Source: Luminiphilus sp. (GTDB taxonomy: Bacteria; Pseudomonadota; Gammaproteobacteria; Pseudomonadales; Halieaceae). Taken from it: a DNA stretch of 35,562 nucleotides. The DNA lies in NCBI GenBank assembly GCA_029242325.1, contig JAQWUD010000039.1, positions 1 through 35,562 on the forward strand, given 5' to 3'. Of this stretch, positions 29,470-35,250 are shown piece after piece; positions within the stretch are counted from its first letter, which is position 1; every line of letters starts with the position of its first letter. The translations under genes were made by a program, and so were the position numbers. The notes below the pieces were generated by a model, which saw nothing but the letters and a program-made list of their open reading frames with translations, did no database searches and was not told the DNA's origin.

Positions 29470-29574
29470 ATGAGAAATGTGTCACGGGTTGAGAGAGCCC
29501 TCAGCGTTTTGGAACTCATGAATCAGCTCCGTTTCAGCCACCTCGATGCCACCAACTTCAAAGGACTGGATTAA
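29470..29574 (+). CDS. 34-codon ORF: IclR N-terminal remnant or leader peptide
   Basis: ATG 29470 follows AAGGAG by nine bases, and the product is MRNVSRVERALSVLELMNQL plus 14 more residues. The VERALSVLELMN segment is like the first helix of IclR-type regulators, which usually continue into a helix-turn-helix; here the frame ends at TAA 29572-29574. The stop is four bases before the SDR start, so ribosomes finishing it could initiate the SDR. It is either the stub of a deleted regulator or a short coupled leader. Confidence 0.45.
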   Translation: MRNVSRVERALSVLELMNQLRFSHLDATNFKGLD

Positions 29575-29578
29575 CGAT

Positions 29579-30346
29579 ATGGCGGGTCGATTGGATAGCA
29601 AGGTGGCGGTTGTGACCGGAGGTGCCTCGGGCATCGGAGAGGGAATGGTTAGGCGTTTCGTGAGAGAAGGCGCAAAGGTTTTTCTGGCTGATAACGACGA
29701 GGCTAGCGGGAGCCGCGTCGCCACAGAGTGTGGCGCCCAGTTCGTACCCCTCGATGTCAGCCGCGAGGAAGATTGGCGGGCGCTTGAATCAGTGGTTAGC
29801 GCGGATGCTTCGCAGCTCGATATCCTGGTCAACAATGCGGGTATTGTCAGTAATCTCGATATTACCCAGGTGACTGTCGAGGCGTGGCAGAGACTGATGG
29901 GCATTAATCTGACCGGAATGATGCTGGGGTGTCAGATGGCGGTGAAGATGATGCGAGAGAATCCCGCCGCTGCGGCCGGGTCGATTATCAACACGGCGTC
30001 ATCCACCTCTTATCTGGCAATCCCTGATGTGGCCTATACGACCTCAAAAGCGGGGGTGGTGGGGTTGACTAAATCGGTAGCGGTGCATTGTGCCAATCTA
30101 GGGACGAATATCCGATGCAACTCTATTCATCCTGGGGCGACGCTCACTACTATTCTGAAAGCCGCTATTGAGCAAGCGCCCGAGATCAGAGATGCCTGCG
30201 AAAAAATGTCTCCACTCAACCGAATGGGTACCGTTGAGGAGGTGGCCGCAATGGCTGTCTTTTTAGCCTCAGATGAGGCCAGTTTTTGCACCGGCGGGCA
30301 GTATGCGGTGGAAGGTGGCACGGTCAGTCAACACCCCAAGATGTGA
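29579..30346 (+). CDS. Short-chain dehydrogenase/reductase (SDR)
   Basis: This NAD(P)-dependent oxidoreductase of the classical SDR type is 255 residues long from MAGRLDSKVAVV (ATG 29579). It has the dinucleotide motif TGGASGIG (13-20), an Asp after the second strand (LADND) that favours NAD, NNAG (85-88), the catalytic Ser near 141-142, and YTTSK with Tyr153 and Lys157. The C-terminal GGQYAVEGG block is standard. An earlier ATG (29546) lies inside the preceding small ORF and would add 11 residues. It resembles alcohol/steroid/3-oxoacyl SDRs of marine gammaproteobacteria; the substrate cannot be told. It could be coupled to the small ORF upstream. Confidence 0.92.
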   Translation: MAGRLDSKVAVVTGGASGIGEGMVRRFVREGAKVFLADNDEASGSRVATECGAQFVPLDVSREEDWRALESVVSADASQLDILVNNAGIVSNLDITQVTVEAWQRLMGINLTGMMLGCQMAVKMMRENPAAAAGSIINTASSTSYLAIPDVAYTTSKAGVVGLTKSVAVHCANLGTNIRCNSIHPGATLTTILKAAIEQAPEIRDACEKMSPLNRMGTVEEVAAMAVFLASDEASFCTGGQYAVEGGTVSQHPKM

Positions 30347-31022: not shown

Positions 31023-32240
31023 TTATGCTGTGAGCGGTGTTGCACCTTGAGTGCCCGATGCACGCCGGCGCGCGAGAAACCACTGGTGAAAATGGTGGGT
31101 GGGTAAGTCCATCAGGGGCGTAAACAGCCCGCCATCGAAAGCGGGTGAGCCCCGGCCTATTTGCATGCCCTCGACCACCGAAACGTCCTCTGCAAATACG
31201 CTGTTCCACGCCTCGTAGAGACTTTGGCGGCGTTCCTCGTAGGCCTCGGTGCTTGCCTCGGGGCTTGAATACATAAATTGCAGGCGCTCGCGCGTGACAT
31301 CGACCGCTTCAGGCATGAGTAGGATGACAAAAAAATGGTCTGCCTGAATGCCCAATAAAATGTTGGGATACAGCGACAGGTATTCTGCAGTTTTTAGGCG
31401 ATCGGTGTCCCAGCCAGAGAACTGGGGTAGTGGTTGGTTGCCACCCCGTGTCAGGTCATACACGCAAGTGCCCTGACCCGATGCAAGTGGCTCAACGATC
31501 AAATTGTAGTGCGAATCGAGCGGAGAGTAGGTGTTGAGATCTGGATGCACGAAGGGCAGATGGTAGGCCTCGCAGTAGTTTTCAACCGCGAGCTTGTAGT
31601 TACTGCGCAGCGCAATTTCCATGGCCCCGAACGCTGAGGAATCCGCTGTGAGCTCCCGATCAAAATGGATGCCGGCCAGATCTCTCCACCGCGAGAGTAG
31701 CGGTGCGAGGTGCTCGCTCAATGTGGGTGCCTCACCCGATAAATTAATAAACACGATGCCCATTAATTCCTCGCAGAGAACACTCGTCAGCGCATGATGA
31801 GCGCAGTCGAAGTGGTCGACCTGGTGAACGCCCATACCCCCGATGTTGGGCGTCGTTTTGAGTTGGCCAGTAAGGTCGTACCCCCATTTGTGATAGGCGC
31901 AGCGAATCATAAGCCCGGCCTCACCGGGTTCTGCCACCAGCTGCATGCCCCGGTGGCGGCAAACATTATGGAAGACGCGGGCACGGCCAGCTTGATCGCG
32001 TGCCATGAGCAGCGGCAGGCCCATAAAAGTCACAGGGCAAACGTAGCCTGCCGTCGGGATATCAATGCTGAACCCCAAGCCTGCCCAAGTTTCTGCTATC
32101 ACCTCATCGCGTTCTCTTCGCCACTCATTATCATCGGTGTAGGCTTGATGGGGGAGTGCGGCGCTCCTTAAAACTGAGGGGTCAGCACTCTCATGAGGAC
32201 TGATATCAGTGGTGGAAGCGAGGGTGTCAGAACGTGCCAT
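31023..32240 (-). CDS. Rieske non-heme iron oxygenase, alpha subunit
   Basis: The 405-residue protein has a Rieske [2Fe-2S] domain with Cys94-X-His96 and Cys114-X2-His117 (17 residues between His96 and Cys114). The catalytic domain has the iron ligands His227 and His232 in ENYCEAYHLPFVH, and Asp352 (AEDVSVVEG) as the probable third ligand. The residue before AYH that relays electrons between subunits is Glu224; most ring hydroxylases have Asp there, while carnitine, choline and glycine-betaine monooxygenases have Glu. That suggests an N-methylated or quaternary amine as substrate, by inference. No reductase gene is adjacent. The FAD oxidoreductase is 129 bases upstream on the same strand. The ATG at 32240 is the first of the frame. 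Confidence 0.9.
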   Translation of the reverse strand: MARSDTLASTTDISPHESADPSVLRSAALPHQAYTDDNEWRRERDEVIAETWAGLGFSIDIPTAGYVCPVTFMGLPLLMARDQAGRARVFHNVCRHRGMQLVAEPGEAGLMIRCAYHKWGYDLTGQLKTTPNIGGMGVHQVDHFDCAHHALTSVLCEELMGIVFINLSGEAPTLSEHLAPLLSRWRDLAGIHFDRELTADSSAFGAMEIALRSNYKLAVENYCEAYHLPFVHPDLNTYSPLDSHYNLIVEPLASGQGTCVYDLTRGGNQPLPQFSGWDTDRLKTAEYLSLYPNILLGIQADHFFVILLMPEAVDVTRERLQFMYSSPEASTEAYEERRQSLYEAWNSVFAEDVSVVEGMQIGRGSPAFDGGLFTPLMDLPTHHFHQWFLARRRASGTQGATPLTA

Positions 32241-32369
32241 GCATTTCGCGGTTCTTGCAGCGTACTGTAATACTACGCCCTGACGGTGGTCGGGAAAATC
32301 ATTTTTTCATGGGTCCGGGACGAGATTTCTCAGCCGCCGTAGGGTGGTGGGGTCAGCAGGTGTTGGCCC

Positions 32370-33713
32370 TTAGCTCCAGGGAAAAGGACTGTTCGACACG
32401 GGATGAAGATCGCCCTCGGCGTAGCGGGAGAAGCGAAAGGGGTTGAGCAAATCCGGTTTGTTGCCACAGATAGTTTGCGCGACGAGATCGCCCACGCCAA
32501 TCATTTTGTAGCCGTGATTGGAGTCTGCAATGACAAAACAGTTCTCCTTCATGGTGTCAAAAACCGGGAAGCTATCGGGTGTGAATGCGCCAATGCCGCC
32601 CGAGGGTTCGGTTTTAAAGTGGGGCAGAGTGCCCGAAAAGCGCTGCTGACAGTGGGCGAGGGCCGATACCCACATCTCGGCAAACTCGGGCCCCACCACA
32701 AATTCCGGTGAGTCCGGGCCGTAGGGGTCCACCGCTACCTCGCTCGCCGGCTTGTCAACGATAAACGGGGCCGCTCCGCCCTGAACGCCGCCAAAGTGGA
32801 AGTCGGGTTTGTAGTAGATACCCCACATTGCGTTTGTGAGCAGCCGGCTGTCATGGTCTGAATAAAGGGGTGCATCGGTATCCACATGGATAACCGGCGG
32901 CATCTCTCCCTCATTGGTGACCTGCAGCGTGGGGTCAACGCCCAGCGTGCCTTCCTGCAGTGACCAGTAGATCCACATCGGGATGCCCTCGCTGATCTCA
33001 CCCGTTGCGGCGTTGCGGATACCCACTTCCATGGGGAGCTCCAGCATCTCCCAAAAGATGCGGACCCAGGGGCCTGCCGCCACGACGGCATAATCGCACT
33101 CGATGCGCCCCTGATCGGTGTCTACCGCAGCGATCGCACCGCTATTGTCGCTCTCGAGCGCCTTCACCGTGATGCCGCTCATAATGCGAACCCCGAGCGC
33201 TTTGGCCTTGGCCGCAAGGCCCAGCATTGCAAGGCTATTGTTGGCGTAACCACCGGGCATTTCATGGAGCACCGAGGTGATGCCCTGCGCGCACCAATCT
33301 GAAAATAGCCCCTTCATGTAGCGTTCGCTCTCAGCGGCGCCTTCAATAAAAACGGATTCGTAGCCAATAGCCTGCTGTTGCGCATGGATGGCCGCCACGT
33401 CTTCACGCATCGATTCGCAGCTGATCTGCATGTAGCCCACGGGATGATAGCTGTAGGTCTCGGGGTCGCTCTCCCAGATATTGACCGAGTGTGCCATCAG
33501 CTCGCGCATGGCTGGCTGGAAGTAGTTATTGCGGATCACGCCACAGGCAATACCCGTGGCGCCGGCGCAGATGCCCGATTTATCCAGCACCACGATGTCC
33601 TCGCCCGTGCCTCTGCCAGTGTTTTTAAGTTGTAGCGCTAGGTGGTAAGCAGTGCTGAGGCCATGAATCCCGGCGCCAATAATCACATAAGGGCTGTGGG
33701 AAGGCAGGGTCAT
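32370..33713 (-). CDS. FAD-dependent oxidoreductase, DAO family (sarcosine/dimethylglycine oxidase-like)
   Basis: The 447-residue protein opens with the FAD dinucleotide motif IIGAGIHGLSTAYHL (GAGIHG at 13-18), continues with VLDKSGICAGATG, and ends with SFPVFDTMKENCFVIADSNHGYKMIGVG, the DAO-family C-terminal FAD block. Members oxidise secondary or tertiary amines such as sarcosine, dimethylglycine or glutamyl amines. No tetrahydrofolate-binding domain follows, so it is the single-domain type. The ATG overlaps the stop of the upstream ASCH gene by one base (TGATG), so they are coupled. Its genetic link to a Rieske enzyme fits stepwise N-dealkylation, but the substrate is not known. Confidence 0.88.
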   Translation of the reverse strand: MTLPSHSPYVIIGAGIHGLSTAYHLALQLKNTGRGTGEDIVVLDKSGICAGATGIACGVIRNNYFQPAMRELMAHSVNIWESDPETYSYHPVGYMQISCESMREDVAAIHAQQQAIGYESVFIEGAAESERYMKGLFSDWCAQGITSVLHEMPGGYANNSLAMLGLAAKAKALGVRIMSGITVKALESDNSGAIAAVDTDQGRIECDYAVVAAGPWVRIFWEMLELPMEVGIRNAATGEISEGIPMWIYWSLQEGTLGVDPTLQVTNEGEMPPVIHVDTDAPLYSDHDSRLLTNAMWGIYYKPDFHFGGVQGGAAPFIVDKPASEVAVDPYGPDSPEFVVGPEFAEMWVSALAHCQQRFSGTLPHFKTEPSGGIGAFTPDSFPVFDTMKENCFVIADSNHGYKMIGVGDLVAQTICGNKPDLLNPFRFSRYAEGDLHPVSNSPFPWS

Positions 33714-34213
33714 CAGGTAAATTCGCCGATATACTCGAAGGGCTCGATCAGCACGGGCATGTCATCGGTGCACTCCCGGCCATAGTTTTTCAGTAATCCG
33801 TTCCAATAGCCCCTATGAAGCGGAATCCAGACATCGGGGTCTTGCACGGGTGGGCCATCGAGGCTTGTTTCGGCGTACCCGATCGCTCCAAAGGTGGTCT
33901 CACGGATCTCGGTGAGGCGCACGATCAAGCGGGGCGCGCCTTGGTAATCACACAGCACGACCGGAGTGCCGGCCTCTGCATAGGGGAAACCGTTGGCATC
34001 GATTACCCAGGGGAGACTGAATGTGGCCACCTTTTCCTGCGTTTTGATGTACGCGAAGATCTGTTCGGTTGTTTCGGCATCGATGCCAATAGAGCGGACT
34101 TGATAATCGCTCCCGAGCCCGGCGTTCTGGTCACAAGCTCGTTGCCAAAAGGCATCAATTGCGCCCGGATTGGGCTGTGCGGGACCGTCTGCTATCAAAA
34201 TATCCTGAGTCAT
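33713..34213 (-). CDS. ASCH-domain protein
   Basis: From MTQDILIADGPAQP (ATG 34213, GAGAG upstream) the protein is 166 residues. The C-terminal half has the ASCH pattern: a strand VVLCDYQGAPRLIVRLTEIRE, FGAIGYAETSLDG, a Trp/His/Arg helix (HRGYWNGLLKNYG) and MPVLIEPFEYIGEF. ASCH proteins have a PUA-like fold; known members bind RNA, cleave RNA, or hydrolyse N4-acetylcytidine (YqfB). Here the gene is fused by overlap to an amine-type FAD oxidoreductase, which points to a metabolic role instead, perhaps a hydrolase in the pathway. An upstream in-frame start (34252) adds 13 residues and is less likely. Confidence 0.75.
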   Translation of the reverse strand: MTQDILIADGPAQPNPGAIDAFWQRACDQNAGLGSDYQVRSIGIDAETTEQIFAYIKTQEKVATFSLPWVIDANGFPYAEAGTPVVLCDYQGAPRLIVRLTEIRETTFGAIGYAETSLDGPPVQDPDVWIPLHRGYWNGLLKNYGRECTDDMPVLIEPFEYIGEFT

Positions 34214-34296
34214 CAGAACTCTCTTTGTATTACGTTCGTAGACGCGGATCATGCTTTAAACGGCACTCGCTGGATAGTGGGTATCTAGAGCGTCAG

Positions 34297-35250
34297 TTAC
34301 TGAAGGCCCGCTAACAAATTTGAGTACATCTCTGTATCAAACGGTATGCGGGCACTCAGCACATGCAAGGTGATGAAATGTATCAGCGGGTTGCCGGTCA
34401 CTACGGTAAAAGTGGCCTTGCCCATTCCGACGAGCACCTGCGTCATGATGATGTAGCTCACGCTGAGGGCGCCGGCTTCAACCGAGCTGTAATCGACGCC
34501 GGGGTCAAAGAGGCTGAATACGGCATAGAAAAAACCCGCCAGTAGGATCACGGTGAGCTTGCTGTCAAAAAGCACCATGAGGCGAGGTATCAATATCACG
34601 TGCATTAGCAAAACGACTGGCAACCCAGCGCCGATGGTATTGGCCGCGATGCTGGTCGGAACGCCCACTGCATATTGTTGCCCGCTTAAGGAGAAAAAGT
34701 TGACGCCACCAATGATGGGCCCGAAAAAATCGAGTGCCCAGTAGGCGACAATAATCCATGCGTTTTTACGCCACTCCAGCGTGCGGAGCAGGTCCGCTAC
34801 GCGCAAGCCTGTTCGCCGGAGCCAGTAAATTGGAATGACGATGTAGAAGACGCCGTTTAGCAGCATCCAGCTCACCACGTCATGCCAATGATGCGTGCTG
34901 CGCTCGTAAACCTCAGGCCCGGGAAAGTGCAGTCCGGTATTCCAAAAGAATCCTAGGCCTATTTGGGTGATCAACAGATAGGCGCAGACCAGCCAGAGTT
35001 GCGGTCGCGCGCGCGTGATATCGACATGGAAGTCACTCGCCCATTGAATGGGCGAACGCTTTCGCGTAAGGAAAAGAAGCAAAAATACGCTCAGCGCCAA
35101 GACCGGCAAATAGGCGCTCAAAAGGCTGGAGAGTGCACCTTCGGCAATCGGAGGGCGGTAATTGACGGTCGAGTCGAGCAAAAAGAAGGTAATCGTCACC
35201 GCCGCCCAGAGCATTGCAAAACCAATGAATAACGGACGAGTTTTTTCCAC
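34297..35250 (-). CDS. Polytopic membrane protein, unknown family
   Basis: The 317-residue protein has eight or nine hydrophobic segments, beginning PLFIGFAMLWAAVTITFFLL and including WLVCAYLLITQIGLGFFW and IIVAYWALDFFGPIIGGV. The C-terminal part has GNPLIHFITLHVLSAR, a His-rich helix that recalls CPBP-type membrane proteases, but I do not find their EExxxR motif, so I do not assign that family. It lies 83 bases upstream of the ASCH gene on the same strand, so it could start the same transcript, and just downstream of tRNA-Arg. Confidence 0.7.
   Translation of the reverse strand: MEKTRPLFIGFAMLWAAVTITFFLLDSTVNYRPPIAEGALSSLLSAYLPVLALSVFLLLFLTRKRSPIQWASDFHVDITRARPQLWLVCAYLLITQIGLGFFWNTGLHFPGPEVYERSTHHWHDVVSWMLLNGVFYIVIPIYWLRRTGLRVADLLRTLEWRKNAWIIVAYWALDFFGPIIGGVNFFSLSGQQYAVGVPTSIAANTIGAGLPVVLLMHVILIPRLMVLFDSKLTVILLAGFFYAVFSLFDPGVDYSSVEAGALSVSYIIMTQVLVGMGKATFTVVTGNPLIHFITLHVLSARIPFDTEMYSNLLAGLQ

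Follow-up and report, generated by a model that had tools for sequence, protein, structure and literature searches.

The locus described here raises the question of which substrate is processed by a Rieske oxygenase and a flavoenzyme whose genes stand side by side in Luminiphilus sp. (Halieaceae) and of whether the small ASCH-domain protein encoded ahead of them belongs to the same pathway. The locus lies on contig JAQWUD010000039.1 of assembly GCA_029242325.1; the stretch analyzed, here called the window, comprises positions 1 to 35,562 of this contig, i.e., 35,562 nucleotides. We propose, with a probability of roughly 55%, that the Rieske oxygenase and the stand-alone DAO-type flavin adenine dinucleotide (FAD) oxidoreductase form a two-gene catabolic module that would act in sequence on a betaine-like substrate, with the ASCH protein as an accessory. 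Methylated nitrogen compounds are a major food of ocean bacteria, and the assignment of genes to individual betaines is partly open. Knowing the substrate would give a function to a family for which no curated NCBIfam model scored over its cut-off here; moreover, relatives of the DAO have betaine-type Rieske oxygenases of two different kinds as neighbors, which marks a step worth assigning. The genes in question are as follows:

33713..34213, minus strand: ASCH-domain protein of 166 aa (179 aa if the upstream ATG at 34252 is used), with a DUF984-type ASCH fold
32370..33713, minus strand: stand-alone DAO-type FAD oxidoreductase of 447 aa
31023..32240, minus strand: Rieske non-haem iron oxygenase alpha subunit of 405 aa
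33713, minus strand: base common to the ASCH stop codon (TGA) and the DAO start codon (ATG), a 1-base overlap

This layout, with 129 bases between DAO and Rieske and all three genes on one strand, is as given in a preliminary description made from the sequence alone. That description also took the combination of a Rieske and a DAO-type enzyme as the logic of methylated-amine breakdown, and here our data agree with it: the two genes form a tight pair within the genus and recur as a pair in other families. Among the 57 genomes of the genus survey (Halieaceae, Luminiphilus-like), many of which are incomplete metagenome-assembled genomes so that absences in them are weak, the DAO is found in 20 and the Rieske in 19, and all 19 genomes with the Rieske also have the DAO. 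The Rieske and the DAO, or an end piece of the DAO, are adjacent on one contig in 18 of these 19 genomes; in G059, they lie on two contigs, and the contig with the DAO (by coordinates that of locus L023) stops inside a Rieske fragment. In G071, the only genome with the DAO but no Rieske match, just the first 150 residues of the DAO are present, at the end of a stretch. Isolates with both genes include HTCC2080 and SAR92 clade H231. For the wider neighborhoods, we used the best 80 of 321 DAO relatives; the DAO shows 67 to 91% identity across many gammaproteobacteria and some alphaproteobacteria. Neighbors were counted by clustering open reading frames (ORFs) from a simple longest-ORF caller that missed some genes, and L093 does not enter the count because its DAO was not part of the ORF cluster. 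A Rieske of the same clade is present in 24 of the 80 loci and is the next gene in 23. The neighborhoods also contain an aldehyde dehydrogenase (c15; nine loci), BCCT-like transporters (seven loci, within four genes in four), a SoxB-like gene (18 loci, within four genes in 10), and GbcA- plus GbcB-like genes (five loci: L031, L050, L052, L054, and L057). As judged from gene content and similarity, the case for a betaine-type Rieske-DAO module is supported.

The Rieske protein has the Rieske ligands, and His227, His232, and Asp352 stand at the iron-ligand places in the alignment. Glu224, which is invariant in alignment A3, aligns with the bridging E205 of CntA, and Tyr222, two places before it, provides an aromatic at CntA position 203. 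In PMC7948474, group V oxygenases split at this position into clade Va with an aromatic (carnitine, choline, and benzalkonium) and clade Vb with Asn (glycine betaine and proline betaine demethylases). By its bridging Glu and its aromatic, the window Rieske would thus be placed in group V and, within it, in clade Va, and Tyr occupies this position in every readable row of its clade, including relatives from Phaeobacter, Pseudomonas, Oceanisphaera, Cupriavidus, and Acinetobacter. A Cys-X-X-Cys pair by the iron site, attributed to some group V enzymes in PMC10952381, is absent from the clade, which has EAYHL or ESYHL where ECYHC would be expected. The best solved match is a putative dioxygenase (3n0q; 90 bits), and further solved relatives are carnitine monooxygenase (83 bits) and stachydrine demethylase (73 bits). 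No work on the Rieske clade or on the ASCH-DAO-Rieske gene order and, for the homarine pathway, no title on these genes was among the literature matches listed. As a separate observation, further genes stand ahead of the pair in G006 (L162:2473-11711), namely one for a second Rieske, in which the Va Tyr occurs together with the Cys-X-X-Cys pair, and those for an aldehyde dehydrogenase, a small protein, and a DAO-GcvT fusion.

The Va-type Tyr in all readable rows of the clade agrees with an alternative in which the Rieske cleaves a C-N bond to a larger chain, or oxidizes the chain in the manner of carnitine or choline monooxygenase, to give a semialdehyde for an aldehyde dehydrogenase, with the DAO acting later or in parallel. 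The neighbors point the same way, as an aldehyde dehydrogenase lies directly beside the Rieske in six of the 80 DAO loci (L037, L043, L046, L047, L055, and L061) and directly follows it in all six records that we opened among 87 plasmid-collection records with Rieske relatives (58 from Phaeobacter and 17 from Leisingera). These six come from Phaeobacter (two), Cupriavidus, Oceanisphaera, Pseudomonas sp. MPC6, and Acinetobacter, and all but the Cupriavidus stretch also have a BCCT gene. A PDR-type reductase is encoded in both Phaeobacter stretches, as is a long FAD-dependent oxidoreductase; in L165, the stretch tested for this, the latter is a DAO-GcvT fusion. Each of the remaining four encodes a rubredoxin-reductase-like protein (named by eye) together with another FAD enzyme. 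However, no aldehyde dehydrogenase was noticed in the window unit, where ORFs were judged by eye, the Cys-X-X-Cys pair that is important in CntA is absent, and the job of the DAO would be left unexplained. We regard this alternative as unlikely.

The DAO has a predicted DAO fold and matches the Pfam DAO family over the cut-off, which places it in the DAO amine/amino acid oxidase superfamily as a relative of sarcosine oxidase beta, L-proline dehydrogenase, and dimethylglycine dehydrogenase. Its 447 residues comprise only the DAO part with no GcvT domain, and against the SoxB model (TIGR01373) it scores 68.4 bits, with a cut-off of 529; among the ORFs around it, judged by eye, no soxDAG-like partners are apparent. 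Arg61 and Lys403 are conserved without exception across 28 aligned sequences. In sarcosine oxidase, the Arg and the Lys have a carboxylate-binding role.

These relationships bear on the glycine betaine-like scheme of the preliminary description and on its classical form, in which the Rieske would convert glycine betaine to dimethylglycine, the DAO would convert dimethylglycine to sarcosine, and a sarcosine oxidase would complete the path to glycine. In favor of this scheme is the company of the DAO: its relatives adjoin a GbcA-like Rieske with GbcB-like genes in the five loci named above, with the Vb Asn in four of them (L050, L052, L054, and L057; the motif of L031 is not readable), occur in runs with SoxB- and SoxA/G-like genes (e.g., L053, L058, and L073), and have BCCT transporters nearby. 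The scheme is weakened by the window Rieske, which has Tyr rather than Asn at the Va/Vb position and scores 108.5 bits against the GbcA equivalog NF058607, far under its cut-off of 670. Even the GbcA-like gene of L052 reaches only 512 against this cut-off. In Pseudomonas vlassakiae (L057), the DAO lies near a GbcA/GbcB-like pair and sox-type genes in a cluster that by coordinates fits contig C13; however, this organism also has the DgcB marker as well as a further GbcA-type Rieske on a different contig. In the same locus, a protein of the dimethylsulfoniopropionate (DMSP)-lyase cupin family (PF16867, 115 bits; L057:3574-4359) is encoded 5' of the GbcA/GbcB-like pair and the DAO.

The window genome itself also argues against this scheme. 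Its contig C4 (L155:1-13673) encodes two MttB/MtgB-like proteins, an MtgC-like corrinoid protein, and a methyltetrahydrofolate:corrinoid methyltransferase, beside two adjacent DAO-GcvT fusions of 807 and 814 aa that resemble dimethylglycine dehydrogenase; the DgcB marker (DUF3483) was not found in this genome. The set resembles the MtgBCD glycine betaine route as given in PMC12478193, and B12-dependent betaine demethylation is its likely function. Because the genome has this gene set elsewhere, the substrate of the Rieske-DAO pair in the window organism is probably not glycine betaine, although the argument is an indirect one and redundancy is possible. Altogether, we consider stepwise demethylation of glycine betaine by the pair unlikely.

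From the gene order, gene families, co-occurrence, key residues, and predicted folds that we observed, we infer the reactions of the module, their order, the substrate class, and the accessory role of ASCH as follows. The substrate would be a betaine-like compound with a quaternary nitrogen and probably a carboxylate. Electrons would reach the Rieske from a reductase encoded elsewhere; the Rieske would hydroxylate a carbon adjoining the charged nitrogen, upon which the C-N bond would break with release of formaldehyde or a larger aldehyde. The DAO would then oxidize the tertiary or secondary amino acid product to an imine, which would be hydrolyzed. The ASCH protein, ahead of the pair in one sublineage, would be an accessory, either a small-molecule hydrolase or an RNA-level regulator, and the core reaction would proceed independently of it.

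Several observations weigh against this two-gene module. No reductase gene is present in the window unit, and a PDR-type reductase query taken from the cluster of a relative gave no match in the window genome at E 1e-15. The window-type DAO is in none of the six opened plasmid records; therefore, the Rieske clade also exists without this DAO. Conversely, the DAO has no single fixed partner, because 26 of its 80 loci have no Rieske, Sox, or GlnT-like gene; these 26 include the dropped L093, L023 with its Rieske fragment, and L035, and the stretches of L023 and L035 end at or just after the DAO. Several of the names used also rest on matches under curated NCBIfam cut-offs, i.e., in addition to the L052 GbcA-like gene, the representatives of the SoxB-like genes (478 of 529), the aldehyde dehydrogenase resembling betaine aldehyde dehydrogenase (427 of 669), and the betaine BCCT transporter (390 of 650), as well as the MtgB- and MtgC-like proteins of C4; Pfam matches are strong for the BCCT and aldehyde dehydrogenase representatives, and the SoxA/G names come from clustering and inspection by eye. 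The order of the two enzymes is what we infer rather than observe.

Finally, the gene directly downstream of the DAO is glutamine-synthetase-like in 14 of the 80 loci (L063-L065, L067, L068, L070-L072, L074, L075, L077, L080, L092, and L096) and is followed by a GATase-like gene in 12 of these. Given this neighbor, the DAO could release an amine instead of formaldehyde, and the run from DAO to the glutamine-synthetase-like and GATase-like genes possibly serves amine assimilation. In its full form, this alternative has the DAO turn an N-methyl amino acid into a keto acid and methylamine by deamination; other enzymes would then assimilate the methylamine via a gamma-glutamylmethylamide-like route. 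An L-amino acid deaminase is indeed among the fold and sequence relatives of the DAO. However, the ligase was not found in the five genus genomes searched, in a search that had no positive control genome; it scores 290 against the type III glutamine synthetase cut-off of 469.6; and it resembles the solved glutamate-methylamine ligase no more closely than it does other glutamine synthetases. We consider deamination by the DAO quite unlikely and retain the two-gene module acting on a betaine-like substrate. Separately, we note that nine of the 80 DAO loci (L078, L079, L082, L083, L085, L087, L088, L089, and L091) lie beside or near genes that cluster with ACR3 arsenite exporters and ArsI/CadI; families were checked in L083, where a PatB-type C-S lyase and a choline dehydrogenase are also near the DAO.

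The position of ASCH in the module is a different matter. The preliminary description treated ASCH, DAO, and Rieske as one unit and suggested a search for conserved gene order; this search does not sustain the proposal. ASCH is found in 14 of the 57 genus genomes and overlaps the DAO start in 11 of them (by 1 base in nine and by 4 bases in two), and all three genes occur together in only 10 of the 57. Because the TGA and the ATG share one base in the window, translational coupling of ASCH and DAO is likely there. In three of the 14 genomes, G004 (97% complete), G060 (98%), and G032 (69%), neither DAO nor Rieske was found. G060 has a different Rieske, 26% identical, approximately 5 kb from ASCH. 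Among the 80 DAO loci, ASCH is present in seven by clustering and in eight by tblastn, which alone found that of L021. On a DAO tree of 28 chosen rows, the presence of ASCH (eight rows) is explained by one change, with a support of 66/74; in 70% of 200 bootstrap trees, one change likewise suffices. This tree does not include the split DAO of L056; that gene, from G011, is divided between two frames, and in G068, the DAO and the Rieske each have an in-frame stop, which are either decaying genes or assembly errors.

Outside the genus, ASCH relatives (E of 1e-8 or better) were found in five of 368 further genomes of the class, and by tblastn, no DAO or Rieske like those of the window lies at these loci. 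Four of the loci were widened to 8 to 10 kb per side or to the contig end with the same result, and for G290 and the second G320 locus, the flanks covered were 1.5 kb or ran up to the end of the contig. At the four widened loci, ASCH adjoins other genes, named by eye as AtuA/AtuC-like, VOC-like, PLP-decarboxylase-like, and hydantoinase-like. Based on the genus counts, the ASCH-only genomes, the DAO tree, and the extra-genus loci, we reject a conserved three-gene unit: the DAO-Rieske pair is the unit, and ASCH is an optional companion, and genomes with both ASCH and DAO have the two coupled. The ASCH link is, therefore, a lineage-level coupling and not a conserved pathway feature, and the occurrence of ASCH without DAO and Rieske argues that it has a role of its own. 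Our literature search for ASCH together with a Rieske and an FAD-dependent oxidoreductase gave no match.

A few residues bear on what this role might be. The window protein matches the DUF984-type ASCH fold; its score against PF04266 (ASCH domain) is 18.3 bits, under the Pfam cut-off of 21.2, and the family matches six of six members of ASCH alignment A2 (best E 1.8e-5). Lys61, Thr64, and Asp119 are invariant among nine aligned genus sequences, and Lys61 is invariant in all 11 rows of an alignment with Escherichia coli YqfB and DUF984-type chains. The catalytic set of YqfB is Lys21, Thr24, Arg26, and Glu74 (PMC9599836). Lys61 and Thr64 align with Lys21 and Thr24, Asp119 stands in place of Glu74 (a position held by Glu in 1t62, 3s9x, and L115), and Arg26 is not kept. 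A hydrolase role for ASCH is thus chemically thinkable and possible. It is nevertheless very unlikely in our view that the pathway begins with ASCH acting as a YqfB-type amidohydrolase on an N-acylated amine; the preliminary description had envisaged that a hydrolase might free the amine from an amide. Highly improbable is the most extended version, an undescribed betaine pathway of marine proteobacteria that would combine a Va-aromatic Rieske without the Cys pair and a SoxB-like DAO, and for which one sublineage would have recruited a DAO-coupled ASCH amidohydrolase that releases the amine from an acylated precursor. If the ASCH link is functional, it would place a DUF984-type ASCH protein in a metabolic context.

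Two further genes flank the three:

34297..35250, minus strand: 317-aa protein upstream of ASCH, membrane-like by eye, with no Pfam family
29546-30346: short-chain dehydrogenase/reductase (SDR) gene adjoining the ASCH-DAO-Rieske genes

The 317-aa gene is separated from the ASCH start by 83 bases and also lies 5' of ASCH in L019, L035, L056, and L106; it is possibly the first gene of the unit but is no steady member. An SDR relative that is 74% identical to that of the window lies near ASCH in G032 (L148), one of the genomes in which DAO and Rieske were not found. Because a window-type SDR relative is near it, the ASCH gene of G032 either was left behind after loss of the pair or was present before the pair.

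Comparison with characterized systems places each of the three proteins near a known one without equating it. The ASCH protein shares the fold and the Lys and Thr of the catalytic set with the ac4C amidohydrolase YqfB; however, YqfB has 103 aa compared with 166 aa, and in the window protein, the acid is Asp and Arg26 is missing. EF3133 (1t62) and the Lactobacillus crispatus ASCH protein (3s9x) are alike in fold, size, the Lys-x-x-Thr/Ser motif, and the matching acid but are only 17 to 20% identical to it, and the ribonuclease ZmASCH, with Tyr47, Lys53, and Ser128 in its cleft (PMC5615036), shares the ASCH fold. The DAO has the fold in common with SoxB (TSOX beta) and dimethylglycine dehydrogenase/oxidase over almost the entire chain, and its Arg and Lys motifs are positioned as in sarcosine oxidase beta; in contrast to these enzymes, it stands alone with no fused GcvT domain and remains at 68 bits against the soxB cut-off. 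The Rieske resembles the group Va oxygenases (the carnitine monooxygenase CntA, choline monooxygenase, and OxyBAC) in the bridging Glu, the aromatic, and the His-His-Asp places, and its relatives, too, have a betaine transporter and an aldehyde dehydrogenase close by; however, it reaches only 83 bits to CntA chains, lacks the Cys-X-X-Cys pair and an adjacent reductase, and is paired with a DAO. The pair as a whole compares in its logic with GbcA/GbcB plus DgcAB and SoxBDAG, in which a Rieske is likewise followed by flavoenzymes for methylamine intermediates and with whose GbcA/B-like and sox-type genes the relatives of the window DAO are found; the differences are that the window Rieske stays far short of the GbcA cut-off and belongs to the Va rather than the Vb type and that the DAO replaces DgcAB.

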